Shown here in pieces: positions 2,346 to 8,255 of a stretch of DNA of 14,627 nt. Numbering within the stretch: position 1 is the first letter of the stretch; each line of letters opens with the position of its first letter. The notes under the pieces were generated by a model. The model ran no database searches. It saw only the letters and a list, made by a program, of their open reading frames with translations, and was not told the DNA's origin. This stretch comes from Phycisphaerae bacterium (lineage in GTDB: Bacteria > Planctomycetota > Phycisphaerae > Sedimentisphaerales > SG8-4), in the NCBI GenBank assembly GCA_030603035.1, contig JAUVYQ010000065.1:1-14627 (forward strand), in the 5' to 3' direction. A program made the translations under genes and the position numbers.

Positions 2346-5156
2346 TTATTTTTGTTCTTCTTCGAGCAGAGTTTGCGGCTCGGCTATGATGCGGATACGA
2401 CGTTTTTTGGGTAACACTTTTGCCGAAATTCCCCTTCTTTGCCCGGGTTTTAATTCAAGCTCGAAAGTATCTTTTTCAAGATAGTGATATTGCGGCAGAT
2501 TGTCACTGTAGATTTTAATCGTCCATTTGTCAGGTCGCAATTCTTCAAATTCAAAACGCCCTTGATTGTCTGTAACGGTGCGTCTTACTTCCAAGCTGTT
2601 TCTAAGTTCTACTATAGTATTTGCCAGCCCGTGATATTCGACAAGTTTATCACCTTCGCCATAGCCGCTGCCTTTTCCGACAACATAACGAGGTTCATTG
2701 GTGCCGGTAGGTTTCTCGCTCAGGGTCGTTCTGTTTACGTTCTTTTCGTAACTATAAACCATAATTCGACCTGAGAGTTGCGCAGCTCGCGTTACTGGTA
2801 TAATCACCGGGGTTTTTTCGCCCCCTTGAACAGCCAATTGGATGGGTGTTTTTTGGCCGGGGATTCGGTTCATACCAATACTCGCCGTATCCACACTCAG
2901 GTAAAATATACCGGGATTTACGGAGGGGAAGGTGAAGCTGCCGGCCTTGTTGGTTACTGCGGTTAAACCGTTGAGCCTGAGAATCGCATTGGGAATTGGC
3001 TTTTGTGTCTCCTGGTCATAAACATATCCTTTAACACTACCGATGCTTTTCTTGCGAGCTACAGGCAGGCCTAAAGGAATTGTGTACTGCACCATAAAAG
3101 CGGTGTCATCTTCGGAGTACGAATTCTCGTACCTGGTATGACGGGCAAGAATGGAAAGTTTATTTTTATTGGCGAAAGTATGGCTCAATCTTAATTCCAG
3201 ATTATCTCTGCCGCCTTGTGCTGAGCCTTCATAATCGTTGGTTTGCAAAGCGAGGCTAAAGGAGGTTCTCTTTGCTATTTTGTAGCGGGCGCTGACGCCC
3301 ACGGTTGTACTGCGTCTGCCTTCTCCGGTGAAGTCACTATTTTTATCATAGTAAATATAGCCGCTGTAAGACTGCCTGTTAGTTGGCCTAAAATGAGCAG
3401 AAGCGGTATATCTTTCTGAGTCAGAGGTCGCGTTGTCCAGCTTATTTTTTGTTTTGCCCAATTCGGCAGAGGCACTAAGGGCTAATTTGTTGAAACTCTG
3501 CCCTATACCAAACCTGAAAGTGTTCTCCTGATAGTCAAAGGTGGGGCTGTCGAGCTGGTCCCGGCGGTCTCGGCTGCGCCAATCAAGAGAAAAAGTGGTA
3601 TTAGTTTCCATCTTGTAGTCTAAACCCAACCGATAGTATTTCTCCAGAGGGGCTGAGTAAAGCGACGGGTCTAAATCAAGGTTATTCTCTTGCCGTCTGA
3701 AAGTGGCATTTAGTCTTAGACGTTTGTCTATGGGAACTGTCACACCACCTGAGACATAATCAAGGTCGCTGTAATAACCCGGGTAGTCGGGGCCGCCGTG
3801 AATCAATTTTAAGTAGTAGCTGAGCCAGTCGCTGCGTCCGTAGAGCCTGGTCAGATACGCATTGTCTTTTTTGGTGCCACCCGGCCCCAGCGCATATTCG
3901 AGGTCGAGTTGGGTATTTTCAAAAGGCCGAAGCTCTCCCTCAACGCTCGTGATATTACTTACTTTGCCGTCTCTGTCTTTTCTAAGGTAATTCAAGCCTA
4001 CTTTGTATTTGTCATTTATTGAATAATCCATATAGGCAGCGGTCTCTTCTGTACCGGGCTGCCGCCAGCGTGTTTTCATATAGTAGGCTCCCAAAGTAAA
4101 ATCATCGTCAATACTGAGCTTGCCTTCCAGACCTCTGCCGTATAGATAATTTTCAGTCAGGGGAGAGAGGGAATAAGTGCGGTCACCCAAGTGAAGCTCA
4201 TAGTCTTCTGTCCAGTGGCTAAGAAAATACTCATCGCGCTGGCCAAAGATTGATTTGTCCTGAACGTCCGGGCCTCTGAAGCGAAACCTTATATGTTTTT
4301 TACCTTCTTCGTCTAAGGTACCCTCACCACGGAGCTCAGTTTGAAAGCCGGATTGACGCTGCTCATTTTTCTGGAATACATATCTGAAGGTTATCTCTGC
4401 CGGTATTCTGTGAAAAATATCCTCTACACCGCTTACCCTCGGCAAAATCTCCACCGAACTTGCAGATTTGGCCTTCGCTTTTATCTTGCCGTCTTCAACG
4501 GCTTCAACAGTTAACTGAAGACGATGTTTCAAAATCTTTATTATGTCTGCACTGGTCTTTACGGTTACATTAGCCGTCTCTGATTCACCAGGTGCAAGCT
4601 TGAACGTATCAGTATCAACAGTAAAGGGAAGGTTGTCGCTGCTGTCGATTTTTATTCTTATGGCATTTTCTGTATTGCTTTGATTGACAATTACGAAAGA
4701 GGCTTTGTAATCTTCGCCGGCAATTACCGCCTCAGGAGCGTCCAGAAGTTGCACCTCTAATTTGACAACCGGCAATACCACCGCATAAATAGTATGAAAA
4801 TCGCGAATGGAAGGATATTTCCTGTCTTTAATAATATATGTAATTTCATATTTGCCGGCTAAGGTTGCTTGAGGGACGAAGAAACTTACCAGCTTTGTAT
4901 CACTTGCATTCGAATTTAATTCAAACGGGAAGTCTTTAGTGATAAGCGCCCAGCCATAAGGTAGTTTCACTTCAGAGACGAATTCTCGTTTCTCATCGGT
5001 GTAATTGGTTACGCGGAAGACAGTAGTTATTATCCTGCGAGGTTCCGTTTCAAATAATTCTTTTCCTGCCGGTCTTACCTCAATATTTGGCCCCTGAGCT
5101 TTAACTGATACAGCCATTACCAGGCAGAGGTAAGTTATTAAGGAAATCCTTTTCAT
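2346..5156 (-). CDS. usher-like outer-membrane protein: Ig-like domains, beta-barrel, two C-terminal regulatory-like domains
   Basis: The protein has 936 residues. Residues 1-20 (MKRISLITYLCLVMAVSVKA) are a Sec signal peptide. Residues 21-130 and 131-235 look like two Ig-like (NEW3-type) domains, for example LAPGESETANVTV. Residues about 240-700 are a long run of alternating polar and aromatic strands rich in Tyr, Arg and Asp, including HLGDRTYSLSPLTENYLYG and LDYVSGGVTVPIDKRLRLNA, typical of an outer-membrane barrel. Residues about 704-795 and 795-920 look like carboxypeptidase regulatory-like beta-sandwich domains (GSVKGYVYDQETQKPIPNA; TVTDNQGRFEFEELRPDKW). N-terminal domain, barrel and two C-terminal sandwiches is the plan of fimbrial ushers, and the gene directly follows a chaperone and two small secreted subunits in the same direction. 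I infer an usher-like secretion and assembly pore. The sequence is not FimD/PapC-like, so a different large surface beta-barrel protein remains possible. The start has an AGGA about nine bases upstream, contributed by the flanking repeat. Confidence 0.65.
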   Translation of the reverse strand: MKRISLITYLCLVMAVSVKAQGPNIEVRPAGKELFETEPRRIITTVFRVTNYTDEKREFVSEVKLPYGWALITKDFPFELNSNASDTKLVSFFVPQATLAGKYEITYIIKDRKYPSIRDFHTIYAVVLPVVKLEVQLLDAPEAVIAGEDYKASFVIVNQSNTENAIRIKIDSSDNLPFTVDTDTFKLAPGESETANVTVKTSADIIKILKHRLQLTVEAVEDGKIKAKAKSASSVEILPRVSGVEDIFHRIPAEITFRYVFQKNEQRQSGFQTELRGEGTLDEEGKKHIRFRFRGPDVQDKSIFGQRDEYFLSHWTEDYELHLGDRTYSLSPLTENYLYGRGLEGKLSIDDDFTLGAYYMKTRWRQPGTEETAAYMDYSINDKYKVGLNYLRKDRDGKVSNITSVEGELRPFENTQLDLEYALGPGGTKKDNAYLTRLYGRSDWLSYYLKLIHGGPDYPGYYSDLDYVSGGVTVPIDKRLRLNATFRRQENNLDLDPSLYSAPLEKYYRLGLDYKMETNTTFSLDWRSRDRRDQLDSPTFDYQENTFRFGIGQSFNKLALSASAELGKTKNKLDNATSDSERYTASAHFRPTNRQSYSGYIYYDKNSDFTGEGRRSTTVGVSARYKIAKRTSFSLALQTNDYEGSAQGGRDNLELRLSHTFANKNKLSILARHTRYENSYSEDDTAFMVQYTIPLGLPVARKKSIGSVKGYVYDQETQKPIPNAILRLNGLTAVTNKAGSFTFPSVNPGIFYLSVDTASIGMNRIPGQKTPIQLAVQGGEKTPVIIPVTRAAQLSGRIMVYSYEKNVNRTTLSEKPTGTNEPRYVVGKGSGYGEGDKLVEYHGLANTIVELRNSLEVRRTVTDNQGRFEFEELRPDKWTIKIYSDNLPQYHYLEKDTFELELKPGQRRGISAKVLPKKRRIRIIAEPQTLLEEEQK

Positions 5157-5170
5157 TTTTCACGTCCTGT

Positions 5171-5269
5171 CATTCTGAGCTAACCCCTGCTTTGGGTTCC
5201 CACAAGGCGGGGTCCCTCGCAGGGGCAAGCTTGCACCCGCGCAAGCGGGTGTGAATCGAAGAACCCAAA
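5171..5269. repeat. palindrome-rich intergenic element (REP/MITE-like)
   Basis: The chaperone-usher gap is filled by nested inverted repeats: TTTGGGTTC (5191-5199) with GAACCCAAA (5261-5269), CCCCTGC (5184-5190) with GCAGGGG (5219-5225), CACCCGC (5234-5240) with GCGGGTG (5245-5251, four-base loop), and the palindrome GCAAGCTTGC (5225-5234). The flanks GTCATTCTGAG and GAATCGAAGAACCC resemble dispersed intergenic repeats seen in many bacteria. It could stabilise or attenuate the transcript between the two genes. There is no T-run, so it is not a classical terminator. Confidence 0.6.
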
Positions 5270-5271
5270 TT

Positions 5272-6096
5272 TTACTTTCCAAATTTCAAGGTATAGTTGG
5301 CTCCAAAAATATAATCACCCCCGCAGTCGGCCACTATCAGGGTCTTGTATGTGCCTTTTGGTACGTTAGTTAAATCAACTTTAAATCGGACAGAGGTACC
5401 TGGATAGATGCGTTTCTTACCGCCTTCGAACTTGCCAAGGTAAGTGCCGGTGGTATCATAGAGTTCAACCCACAAAAGTGGCCTCAGCCATCTCTGGCCC
5501 GTGTTTTCCATATCAAGCTGCAGAACTCGCTTTTCGGTTTCTTTTAGAAGTTTTGTCTTTAGAAATTTAAGTTTACGCTCGCCGGTATCGCCAATATGTG
5601 TAACCATCTGGATGTTGTAACGGAATATTTGTGTTATACCCACTTTGGTTTTACCCCTCTCCGGTTGACTGCTCAATGGCGAGCTTTTGGGGACTCCCTC
5701 CACCATAAGCGAACTCCAATAGGTGCCCACAAGGTTTGGGTCATTGGGGACCTTTATGGTGTAATTGACCCTTGATGTGTCGCCGGGGCCGATTACCAGC
5801 CGATGCGGGCTAAAGCCGAGCCAGTCGGCGTTGGAGCGGGGGGTTTTACCCGGCTTACCATAAATATTTCTACCATCAAAGAAAAATAGATAGTCGGTCT
5901 GATAGACCTTCACCTCCTGCAACTCAGTGCCGGTGTTCTTAATAAGGATGGAGCCTTTGTAGGTATCACCCGGACCGGGATTGCTTTTTTTCTCATGGGT
6001 CAGGCCTCCTATGAGGGATACCGCGGCTTCGGTCGCACAGGGCACCAGCAAAAAGAAGAGTAAAACCGGGATAATAATTTTAGTTTTTAGTTTCAT
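5272..6096 (-). CDS. two-domain Ig-like periplasmic chaperone of the pilus-like operon
   Basis: I start this at the ATG at 6096 (274 aa) because MKLKTKIIIPVLLFFLLVPC followed by ATEA is a clean signal peptide; the longer in-frame start at 6186 lies inside the preceding gene and adds an unconvincing leader. Residues about 26-170 form a first Ig-like domain with GDTYKGSILIKNTGTELQEV, WLGFSPHRLVIGPGDTSRV and GTYWSSLMVEG, followed by the strand RYNIQMVTHIG. This order (edge strand, proline-rich PGDT turn, YW..L.VEG, then a strand after a basic loop) is that of pilus-assembly and related Ig-like chaperones. Residues about 172-274 form a second Ig-like domain (LDMENTGQRWLRPLLWVELYD, GTYKTLIVADCGGDYIFGANY). 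The expected role is to hold subunits in the periplasm for delivery to the usher-like protein encoded next. I could not place the PapD Arg8/Lys112 pair with certainty. A DUF916-like or other Ig-fold envelope protein is the main alternative. Confidence 0.65.
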   Translation of the reverse strand: MKLKTKIIIPVLLFFLLVPCATEAAVSLIGGLTHEKKSNPGPGDTYKGSILIKNTGTELQEVKVYQTDYLFFFDGRNIYGKPGKTPRSNADWLGFSPHRLVIGPGDTSRVNYTIKVPNDPNLVGTYWSSLMVEGVPKSSPLSSQPERGKTKVGITQIFRYNIQMVTHIGDTGERKLKFLKTKLLKETEKRVLQLDMENTGQRWLRPLLWVELYDTTGTYLGKFEGGKKRIYPGTSVRFKVDLTNVPKGTYKTLIVADCGGDYIFGANYTLKFGK

Positions 6097-6109
6097 AAGG
6101 TTTTCCCTT

Positions 6110-6598
6110 TCAATCAGTGTCAACAACTGTATAGTAAATCGTCGTCGCATAGTTATTCGGCGGGACCTGTACGGAAACCCCGTCAACCTTCAACTGGACA
6201 TTTATGTTGCTTCTGTCGTTATCACCGCTGAAAAAGCTCTGATCGTCGAAATCTACCTCCTGGTAAAAACCCCCACCTGAGATGTCTCCAGAGCCGGCTC
6301 CATCGGATGTCCTTTTTACATACAGATTAAAATTATCATGCCAGACAGAATCGACCTTCTTAACATTTATCCGCCAATTATCGCCAGTGCCGGCTGTTCC
6401 TGAAATATCTATCGAAACCGCGTTTGAAGCGCTTTCATAGGTACTGTTCAGGTTACTTCCAGCGCCAGCTTGCAAATCTGAAGCATCTATAGTCTCCGAC
6501 CAGCTCCCAGTTACTGTAATGGATATGGGCGCCTCGGCTTTACTGCATAAAAGAATAAGCCCAATTAATAAAACCAGGATGACAGAATTCCTTTTCAA
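6110..6598 (-). CDS. small secreted beta-rich protein, probable second (minor) fibre subunit
   Basis: The gene begins with TTG at 6598, supported by AAGGAG seven to eight bases upstream (around 6607-6612); no better start lies nearby. The 162-aa product has a signal peptide (about residues 1-23, RNSVILVLLIGLILLCSKAEA). The mature N-terminus PISITVTGSWSETI alternates hydrophobic residues like a donor strand. The rest is Ser/Asn/Asp/Gly-rich beta sequence ending PNNYATTIYYTVVD, the Gly/Asn-Tyr-x-x-Thr-Ile-x-Tyr-Thr type of final strand seen in archaic-type (SCPU-like) pilins. It has no cysteine after the signal. It lies 70 bp after the first subunit gene, separated by the 6624-6651 hairpin, and 13 bp before the chaperone start. 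I infer a minor or tip subunit, or adaptor. Sequence similarity to any named family is not evident by eye. Confidence 0.55.
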   Translation of the reverse strand: MKRNSVILVLLIGLILLCSKAEAPISITVTGSWSETIDASDLQAGAGSNLNSTYESASNAVSIDISGTAGTGDNWRINVKKVDSVWHDNFNLYVKRTSDGAGSGDISGGGFYQEVDFDDQSFFSGDNDRSNINVQLKVDGVSVQVPPNNYATTIYYTVVDTD

Positions 6599-6623
6599 CC
6601 TGATACTCCTTCATTCAAGAAAA

Positions 6624-6651
6624 TAGATAGGGGGCAAGAGCCCCCTATCTA
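6624..6651 (-). terminator. 12-bp hairpin with T-run between the two subunit genes (attenuator)
   Basis: TAGATAGGGGGC (6624-6635) and GCCCCCTATCTA (6640-6651) pair perfectly over 12 bp around the four-base loop AAGA. On the minus strand the stem is followed directly by TTTTCTT, so it has the form of a factor-independent terminator. It lies 17 bases after the stop of the first subunit gene and before the AAGGAG of the second. Partial termination or 3'-end protection here would favour the first subunit over the chaperone and usher. Confidence 0.75.
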
Positions 6652-6667
6652 CAATCAGCAACTCTGA

Positions 6668-7162
6668 TTATGAAACATCAGCACTCGTGTAAGTAATCAC
6701 GAAATCGTAACCCGCAGTCGGAGTAGCAGTTGTCGCAGTAGCATTGTAAGTGACGTCCGCATTAGTTATCGCACCAGCTGTAATGCCGGTGTAAACAACC
6801 GCGCCGCCTTCCGTGGCGGTACCAGCAGTGCAAATGGTCTGTATTCCTGCCCCACCATTAACTGTCACTTTGAGCGTAATATCATCACCTGATGGGTCAG
6901 TAGTTACCTCCGCCGTTATCTTCTTGCTGGTGGCTGAGTTGTGGGTGTAATTCAACTTCGCAGTGGTATCGTCCGCGCCTGTCAGAGCACTCGAGCCGGC
7001 GGTACCGTTCAGAGTAATTCCAGTAGTCGCATTGTCGACGGCAAGCAAATCAATTGAACTGACGGTTACAGTCAGATTCGATGTGTCAGTTATCGCCATT
7101 GCTACGCCTGTCAGTCCCACGACCAGCACTGCCACTAACAACATTTTTCTTAATGCCTTCAT
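6668..7162 (-). CDS. small secreted beta-rich protein, probable major fibre subunit
   Basis: This 164-aa protein starts at an ATG with GAAAGGG six bases upstream. MKALRKMLLVAVLVVGLTG followed by VAMA is a signal peptide cleaved near residue 23. The mature N-terminus ITDTSNLTVTVSSIDLL alternates hydrophobic residues, as expected of a donor-strand extension. The remainder is low-complexity Thr/Ala/Gly-rich beta sequence with few charges and ends AGYDFVITYTSADVS, parallel to the YYTVVD ending of the next protein. There is one cysteine (TICTAG). Being first in the operon, behind a long structured leader and in front of a terminator-like hairpin, it fits the position of a major pilin. The pilin role is inferred from size, export signal, composition and context; it has no type IV prepilin cleavage motif. 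The high Thr/Ala content could equally fit another surface beta-protein. Confidence 0.6.
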   Translation of the reverse strand: MKALRKMLLVAVLVVGLTGVAMAITDTSNLTVTVSSIDLLAVDNATTGITLNGTAGSSALTGADDTTAKLNYTHNSATSKKITAEVTTDPSGDDITLKVTVNGGAGIQTICTAGTATEGGAVVYTGITAGAITNADVTYNATATTATPTAGYDFVITYTSADVS

Positions 7163-7236
7163 AATTTACCCTTTCATAATTTCGTCCCGTAAAGGTCTTT
7201 TTCACTATTGGCCTCTGGGACTAACCAATTTTTCGC

Positions 7237-7490
7237 CAGGCACACATCGTGCCTGAACCATAAACTTTCAGCGGACAAAAATCTCCTTAACCGACCCCCC
7301 CAGGCGACTCCCGCTTTAGATCCCTTTAGATCTCGCCTGTGTCGGAGCTAATACCGCCTCAAGACTTAGCTATGTTCTCGAAGCGGTTTTTCAACTACTT
7401 AAGTTAGAGTATCGGGTAGAACACCCGCCTACTTTAACCAGGCTATTCCGTGTTCTAAGGTTCGAAAAACCCTGTGGCTCAGGTTGCCAC
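7237..7490 (-). promoter_or_regulatory. long structured 5' leader of the pilus-like operon (candidate cis-regulatory RNA)
   Basis: On the minus strand upstream of the first subunit gene, many segments pair: GTGGC/GCCAC (7486-7490 with 7474-7478); GGTTTTTCGA/TTGAAAAACC (7462-7471 with 7385-7394, one G-U); inside that, GAACAC/GTGTTC (7450-7455 with 7419-7424) enclosing GCCT/AGGC; CCGCTTC/GAGGCGG (7380-7386 with 7354-7360, one G-U); CCGAC/GTCGG plus AGGCGA/TCGCCT (7333-7345 with 7291-7307), whose apex holds two copies of GATCTAAAG; and CAGGCAC/GTGCCTG (7237-7255). TATATAA at about 7493-7499 could be the -10 element just upstream. I do not recognise a known riboswitch class. The pairing is directly visible; regulation is inferred. 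Confidence 0.45.
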
Positions 7491-7643
7491 TTTATATAAA
7501 CTTGCCTTTTTACACATATGTGCAATACGTTCCCTGTTTTGGCACTTTTATGAGACTCACCAAGTTTTTAAGTCCTATGAATCTAATCTTCTTAACTTTC
7601 CTCACCTGAGTTTGATACAATGATTGCAGGTAGAGTGGTGAAA
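7491..7643. promoter_or_regulatory. divergent intergenic core with a CACATATGTG palindrome
   Basis: This stretch separates the structured leader of the minus-strand operon from the plus-strand secreted protein gene. It is AT-rich and holds the 10-bp palindrome CACATATGTG (7513-7522), well placed for a regulator acting on both directions, with TATATAA (7493-7499) oriented for the minus strand. No convincing -35/-10 pair with normal spacing was found on either strand, so the operator and promoter roles are tentative. Confidence 0.25.
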
Positions 7644-8255
7644 ATGAGAAGTTATTTATTCATCGCAGTGTTGGCAGTATTTGCCTTGTCTTCGGCTTCA
7701 AATTTGGCATTGGCCAAGCCATCGTCTGTCAGTGCCACGTGCAATATAACCTGTACTGTCGCAGAAATTGTGGAGTGGTCAGAGGCCAGTTTTCCAGCTA
7801 TCAATCTCGCGGACCTTACCAGCCAGAACACCCATGTGTCCGGCAGCGCAGCGCTTGTGCTCTATACGAACGCAGATGTGAAAATCACCGCTGATAACTC
7901 AGATGTAGCACAACTTTCAAAAGAGGACAATCATAGGCTTGTTACAGAGTACAAGCTGGAATATGATGCTTTTGGATTAAACAAAACGGGTGGTAGTATG
8001 GTGGATTGGAGTGGGTATGACTCATTCCTCAGCGAAGGTTCAACAGTAACACACGTTTCTGGTGATGGTGCCGTCGAGGTTACTCTGTCAGTGAGGGTTT
8101 CCAACGACAGCGGTGGCTTTGGGAATTCATTGACTCCAGATTTAATGTCGGCCAATCCATCAAGTTGCAATGCCACGTGCATTATATCGTGTACTCTCGA
8201 AAACATCGGTGAGTGCACTGCAACCCAGACCCTCACGGCCTGCTGGAAATCCTAA
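7644..8255 (+). CDS. divergent secreted beta-rich protein with duplicated Cys motif, possible adhesin or third subunit
   Basis: I choose the ATG at 7644 (203 aa) over the in-frame ATG at 7620, because GGTG lies just upstream and MRSYLFIAVLAVFALSSA followed by SNLALA is then a normal signal peptide. The mature protein opens SSVSATCNITCTVAEIVEW, an alternating strand with two cysteines. It continues with a beta domain containing LVLYTNADVKITADNS, WSGYDSFLSEGSTVTHVSG and VEVTLSVRVSND, then near its end repeats the opening motif as CNATCIISCTLENIGEC. Seven cysteines in total contrast with the nearly Cys-free minus-strand subunits. The opening strand and the following LxxYTNA..ITA layout resemble SCPU-like pilins and parallel the first subunit (LNYTHNSATSKKITAEV). 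The C-terminal copy of the first strand without a following domain suggests a truncated second domain or a self-complementing strand. The function is inferred from context only. Confidence 0.6.
   Translation: MRSYLFIAVLAVFALSSASNLALAKPSSVSATCNITCTVAEIVEWSEASFPAINLADLTSQNTHVSGSAALVLYTNADVKITADNSDVAQLSKEDNHRLVTEYKLEYDAFGLNKTGGSMVDWSGYDSFLSEGSTVTHVSGDGAVEVTLSVRVSNDSGGFGNSLTPDLMSANPSSCNATCIISCTLENIGECTATQTLTACWKS

Follow-up and report, generated by a model that had tools for sequence, protein, structure and literature searches.

A candidate divergent chaperone-usher-like locus in a Phycisphaerae bacterium, with relatives in many bacterial phyla

Four co-directional genes and their conservation

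This study concerns four genes in a 14,627-nucleotide stretch of DNA from a Phycisphaerae bacterium (contig JAUVYQ010000065.1; hereafter, the window), which probably encode a divergent chaperone-usher-like pathway. As a preliminary description of this DNA had claimed, the four open reading frames (ORFs) are co-directional. They lie in a row on the minus strand in the order s1, s2, chaperone and outer-membrane protein, and each product begins with a segment that, judged by eye, resembles a signal peptide.

6668..7162, minus strand: s1, secreted β-rich subunit, probably the major one (164 amino acids (aa), ATG start; family alignment A5, homology to s2)
6110..6598, minus strand: s2, secreted β-rich subunit adjoining the chaperone gene, probably a minor, tip or initiating subunit (162 aa, TTG start; alignment A4)
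5272..6096, minus strand: two-domain immunoglobulin (Ig)-like periplasmic chaperone of the WxLIP/PapD superfamily (274 aa from the ATG at 6096)
2346..5156, minus strand: usher-like outer-membrane protein (936 aa)

The start assigned to the chaperone by the ORF caller (TTG at 6186, giving a 304-aa ORF) was judged too early, and the ATG at 6096 is preferred.

Scanning the species genomes of GTDB with the chaperone alignment yielded 92 confirmed loci, 80 of which were kept; an earlier contig scan that used the single barrel protein as query had confirmed zero relatives. Conserved gene order in related genomes had been named beforehand as a check, and the order is indeed kept: in 75 of the 80 loci the chaperone gene is followed by a barrel gene of the same orientation, at a distance of -61 to 388 bp (median 10 bp, versus 115 bp in the window, at 5157-5271 on the minus strand). 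By eye, this spacer contains GC-rich, repeat-like stretches. Among the remaining loci, L010 has its barrel gene upstream of the chaperone within the same cluster, and four have none: L028 and L065, whose contigs extend only 2.2 and 4.4 kb further, and L075 and L078 from Chlorobi, which have 9.9 kb of sequence downstream of the chaperone. The two Chlorobi chaperone homologues (L075 9887-10792 and L078 9920-10780) have neither barrel protein nor subunit-like ORF beside them, and are possibly repurposed copies. Of the 61 loci with enough sequence, 57 have subunit-like ORFs, defined as small, with a hydrophobic leader and the C-terminal strand pattern, in the 1.5 kb preceding the chaperone (the exceptions being L038, L073, L075 and L078); among strand-wise control windows from the same loci the figure is 3 of 488. 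As the loci themselves served to define the strand pattern, by eye, the control weighs more than the raw count. Given the conserved order together with this upstream excess, the locus is more than a chance assembly. Pairwise chaperone distances also correlate with those of the barrel protein (rho 0.69 over 61 pairs including the window; maximum 0.17 in 500 permutations).

The 75 loci with a barrel gene span 14 phylum-level groups, as grouped by record title: Deltaproteobacteria/Desulfobacterota, Zixibacteria, Planctomycetota, Spirochaetales, Troglogloeales, Acidobacteriota with Aminicenantes, Bacteroidetes/Ignavibacteria, Armatimonadetes, KSB1, Bipolaricaulota, Gammaproteobacteria, Firmicutes (Orenia, Clostridia, Bacillota), Verrucomicrobia and Cloacimonadota. 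At E ≤ 0.001, the chaperone has 619 homologues (120 listed) and the barrel protein at least 126 (best 7992 candidates scored; 120 listed), and the s2 family counts 375. The closest named chaperone relative among the matches listed is P0018, a protein from a Phycisphaerales metagenome-assembled genome (68%). Phylum surveys were made by even draws that count the centre genome, a strong chaperone match being one at E < 1e-60. Such matches were found in 2 of 199 genomes from the phylum of the Phycisphaerae locus L006 (both already in the analysis set), 10 of 198 from that of the Ignavibacteriales locus L020 (two already included), 3 of 198 from that of the Desulfobacteraceae locus L003 (one already included), 1 of 200 from that of Thiohalocapsa (the centre genome itself) and 4 of 149 from that of Orenia (two already included). 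With so few strong matches, the system is broad but patchy, and rare. Weaker survey matches (E down to 1e-30) could come from divergent members or from different Ig proteins; in the Orenia phylum, 13 of the 149 genomes have weak matches only (best E 2.8e-21 to 3.2e-5), possibly to divergent WxLIP-like proteins. The usher family PF00577 is found in 0 of 29 host genomes, which hold 29 of the 80 loci (the E. coli control was positive), and in 14 of 100 genomes from the phylum of Thiohalocapsa; since most genomes are devoid of ushers anyway, the usher-free status of these hosts is suggestive only.

The chaperone and its putative subunits

Structure comparison identifies the chaperone as a tandem Ig protein of the PapD superfamily. 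It has two Ig domains of PapD type and the PGBD-HBD tandem fold of WxLIP, and its strongest relative, overlooked in the preliminary description, is the WxLIP of Gram-positive WxL loci. In Pfam and NCBIfam it finds weak matches only, to fn3_5 (0.0054) and WxLIP_HBD (0.063). Profile comparison with hhalign reveals remote homology to PapD across both domains. The hhalign sets comprised 13 of 14 loci for PapD (L097 out), 10 of 14 for ushers (L109-L112 out) and 2 of 6 for WxLIP. The PapD alignment locates the elements that would serve donor-strand complementation:

5689..5727, minus strand: segment GTYWSSLMVEGVP, aligned with the F1 strand of PapD (hhalign alignment, conserved columns)
5641..5688, minus strand: variable linker, the counterpart of the F1-G1 loop (hhalign alignment)
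5593..5640, minus strand: candidate G1 donor strand GITQIFRYNIQMVTHI, with alternating hydrophobic residues (hhalign alignment)

Near-invariant in the candidate strand are I157, Q159, R162, Y163, Q166, M167, T169 and I171. In a model of the L003 protein, the region orthologous to the linker (277-299) is predicted free of strands. The model PF06030 (WxLIP_PGBD) finds matches in two control genomes, Lactococcus lactis and Thermotoga maritima. The latter is a diderm, and may hold another member of the chaperone superfamily.

The subunits s1 and s2 are homologous to each other (hhalign 95.9%, reversed control 1.6%; here and below, hhalign percentages come from single pairwise comparisons on small sets and not from database searches). 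Neither finds anything above noise in Pfam or NCBIfam, and no Pfam family occurs in more than one member of the subunit families at E ≤ 0.1. The 53 sequences picked by eye form two alignable families, the s2-type (A4, 27 rows) and the s1-type (A5, 26 rows), and the similar C-terminal Tyr-Thr strands described earlier for the two proteins are kept across the aligned relatives of both. The number of subunit-like genes varies among loci, up to five. An identity as SCPU pilins was rejected, comparison with 16 SCPU domains giving 0.5% for s1 and 8.7% for s2. In the Bacteroidia locus L057, a DUF4402 protein (PF14352, E 5.1e-19; 6470-7042) lies upstream of the chaperone, a hint that some clients of such systems may be DUF4402 proteins.

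One further feature separates the two subunit genes:

6623..6652, minus strand: 13-bp GC-rich hairpin with a T-rich tail, between s1 and s2, a probable partial terminator

Among 121 subunit genes that are not the last, or that are separated from the chaperone by more than 120 nt, 28 are followed by a hairpin of at least 9 bp, where shuffles predict 2.8; among 46 last ones the count is 2, with 1.1 expected. If this locus resembles known pilus operons in this respect, the hairpin at 6652-6623 would give s1 a higher level than the remaining genes. The leader upstream of s1 (7163-7520, minus strand) folds better than its shuffles (z -3.0, 100 shuffles) and contains a terminator-like hairpin at 7490-7474; it has no Rfam match at E ≤ 1, and blastn against the 80 loci returns two short matches only (E 0.12 and 0.41). 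Further upstream, on the plus strand (7620-8255), a divergent gene encodes a secreted-looking protein of 211 aa with several Cys and SATCNITCTV near its N-terminus, for which Pfam gives no family beyond noise.

The outer-membrane protein

The AlphaFold2 (AF2) model of the outer-membrane protein (pLDDT (predicted local distance difference test) 89.7, pTM (predicted template modelling score) 0.67) shows a very wide barrel, whose 26 listed strands span residues 252-693, preceded by N-terminal domains and followed by two C-terminal ones, as in ushers.

4440..5084, minus strand: two N-terminal Ig-like sandwiches (AF2 strands 24-237)
3075..4400, minus strand: β-barrel, 26 listed strands, no inserted plug domain (AF2 model)
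2394..3041, minus strand: two C-terminal carboxypeptidase-regulatory-like sandwiches (AF2 model, Pfam)

The domain plan proposed earlier thus holds for the barrel and the two C-terminal sandwiches, but the N-terminal part consists of two sandwiches rather than one. Pfam and NCBIfam matches are to CarboxypepD_reg (1.8e-11), Porin_4 (2e-8) and FixG_C (8.8e-8), and the C-terminal sandwiches are homologous to each other (hhalign 97.9%). The second N-terminal sandwich (4440-4763, minus strand) resembles a PapD-like Ig domain, with hhalign values of 76.5% to PapD and 83.0% to the chaperone. In a Foldseek search of the PDB, FimD or PapC chains fill the first eleven places (identity 8-12%, E 6.6e-15 to 2.1e-12); their TM-scores are low, at 0.21-0.39, and Ig-array proteins of cilia come next. 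When the barrel is ranked by Z, MtrB stands first (22.0, 420 residues), followed by PapC (17.7, 371) and FimD (17.4, 350). Compared by profile with ten ushers, the protein scores weakly (hhalign 36.6%, reversed 1.2%).

The usher-type barrel of the preliminary description is therefore retained in part: it is usher-sized and has ushers as its best Foldseek matches, but lacks the plug domain. A barrel without a plug had been listed there as a finding that would speak against the proposal, and with the AF2 barrel devoid of one, this objection partly applies. As plug and sequence match both fail, the protein is usher-like in plan and size, and not an usher by family tests.

A probable pathway, its rivals and known systems

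We consider that the locus probably encodes a divergent chaperone-usher-like pathway. The chaperone-usher logic attributed to it earlier finds support in the synteny across phyla, the PapD-type chaperone, the usher-sized barrel and the single subunit family. According to this model, s1 and s2 would be exported to the periplasm as β-sandwich subunits, where the chaperone would bind each of them, most likely by completing the subunit's sandwich with its own G1 strand (GITQVxRYGIQM), and would carry them to the outer-membrane protein, whose N-terminal sandwiches would receive the complex. The folded subunits would then pass the pore of about 26 strands, the C-terminal sandwiches would hold the growing chain, and donor-strand exchange would link the subunits into a surface fibre, with s1 as the main repeat and s2 as a minor or first subunit. 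Should the pore need closure at rest, the N-terminal sandwiches would be the obvious candidates.

Several results weigh against this pathway. The 42 chaperone members match 16 families at E ≤ 0.1, and PapD_N and PapD_C, PF00345 included, are not among them; likewise, PF00577 has no match in the barrel protein at E ≤ 1 and is not among the best 25 of 54 families for 39 barrel members. The longest gap between barrel strands is 13 residues, with no plug inserted, and the Z-scores of PapC and FimD are tied with those of Fiu (17.1, 288 residues) and OpdL (16.9, 281). In the L003 model, the first residues of the G1-like segment fall inside a low-confidence region (288-297), and the strand begins at 300. 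The fused chaperone-subunit model of the same locus reaches a pTM of 0.59, in our judgement about what unlinked domains would give, so it does not show binding. What the computations show is the gene order with its conservation, the homology between s1 and s2, the fold and remote kinship of the chaperone, and the size and domain plan of the barrel protein; strand donation, subunit order, passage through the pore and the surface fibre are inferred.

The main rival remains a diderm version of the WxL surface complex, in which the WxLIP-like protein would be a lasting structural partner and the barrel would anchor or export a fixed complex, with no polymer formed. Its fold brings the chaperone close to WxLIP, but a membrane helix is missing from the C-terminus of the protein (beyond residue 60 of the 304-aa ORF, 19-residue hydropathy peaks at 0.74), paired W.L motifs occur in 0 of 167 subunit-like ORFs (single ones in 13), a large barrel gene accompanies the chaperone at nearly all loci, and a locus may have as many as five subunit-like genes. 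A true WxL locus was rejected, paired WxL and membrane helix both lacking, and we regard the static counterpart as rather unlikely. Less probable still is a secretion channel for separate surface proteins, such as adhesins or coat proteins, using the chaperone and forming no donor-strand-linked chain. The large plugless pore and the differing number of subunit genes would suit such a channel; against it stand the homology of the two families formed by the 53 picked subunits, their conserved C-terminal strand, and the hairpin after probable major subunits. That the barrel is of MtrB or general porin type, serving as an electron conduit or ordinary porin among unrelated surface proteins, is hardly credible, and both identities were rejected, given the absence of the haem motif CxxCH from the three operon-strand frames, a strand count above the 16-18 of ordinary porins, the terminal sandwiches and the linkage to the chaperone in 75 of 80 loci.

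Beyond the favoured chaperone-usher-like reading, we advance tentatively, as a possibility we would not rank as the likelier outcome, that these loci form a separate donor-strand assembly branch over many diderm phyla, with a chaperone placed between WxLIP and PapD, and that WxL complexes and chaperone-usher pili derive from one ancient subunit-chaperone machine, the barrel having been lost along with the outer membrane. Among the literature matches listed, which cover open-licence PMC papers, the gene set is undescribed, and the words chaperone, usher and Gram-negative do not occur in the main text of the WxLIP paper. Passages of a 2015 paper report chaperone-usher systems from Proteobacteria, Cyanobacteria and Deinococcus-Thermus (PMC4654587). 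If these loci are a parallel system whose chaperone, plugless barrel and subunits are its own, they would widen the known range to Planctomycetota, Bacteroidetes/Ignavibacteria, Spirochaetales, Verrucomicrobia, Orenia and others, supply an outgroup for the evolution of usher gating, and give a testable link to WxL surface complexes. With three strain-titled hosts, Orenia metallireducens, Thiohalocapsa marina and Thiococcus pfennigii, the system is approachable.

In the preliminary description, none of the four proteins had looked by eye like classical Fim/Pap/CS1 types, and no such family appears at E ≤ 1 in Pfam or NCBIfam; a classical or CS1-type pilus by sequence was rejected, the family models failing for the chaperone members and, among the best 25 of 54, for the barrel members. 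With WxLIP (DUF916 and DUF3324) the chaperone shares the PGBD-HBD tandem fold, but it has no C-terminal membrane helix, its partners have no paired WxL, and an outer-membrane barrel is present. PapD, FimC, Caf1M, CsuC and CfaA are alike in their tandem Ig fold, the remote homology of both domains and the aligned F1, loop and G1 segments; they differ in that PF00345 is not found here at E ≤ 0.1 and that the present fold is nearer to WxLIP. The barrel protein shares with the ushers FimD and PapC (PF00577) the large barrel, the N-terminal and two C-terminal sandwiches and the top Foldseek matches. Ushers have 24 barrel strands, whereas 26 are listed here, without a plug, behind two Ig-like N-terminal domains and ahead of carboxypeptidase-regulatory-like C-terminal ones, and with no significant sequence match. 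The plug is given as one of five usher domains in the relevant part of PMC3960871. Archaic pilins (SCPU, PF05229) resemble s1 and s2 as small secreted β proteins with a Thr-rich final strand, but homology is not detectable in these comparisons. Unlike MtrB, the barrel protein has no haem motif in its operon-strand frames, and it carries additional N- and C-terminal sandwiches.

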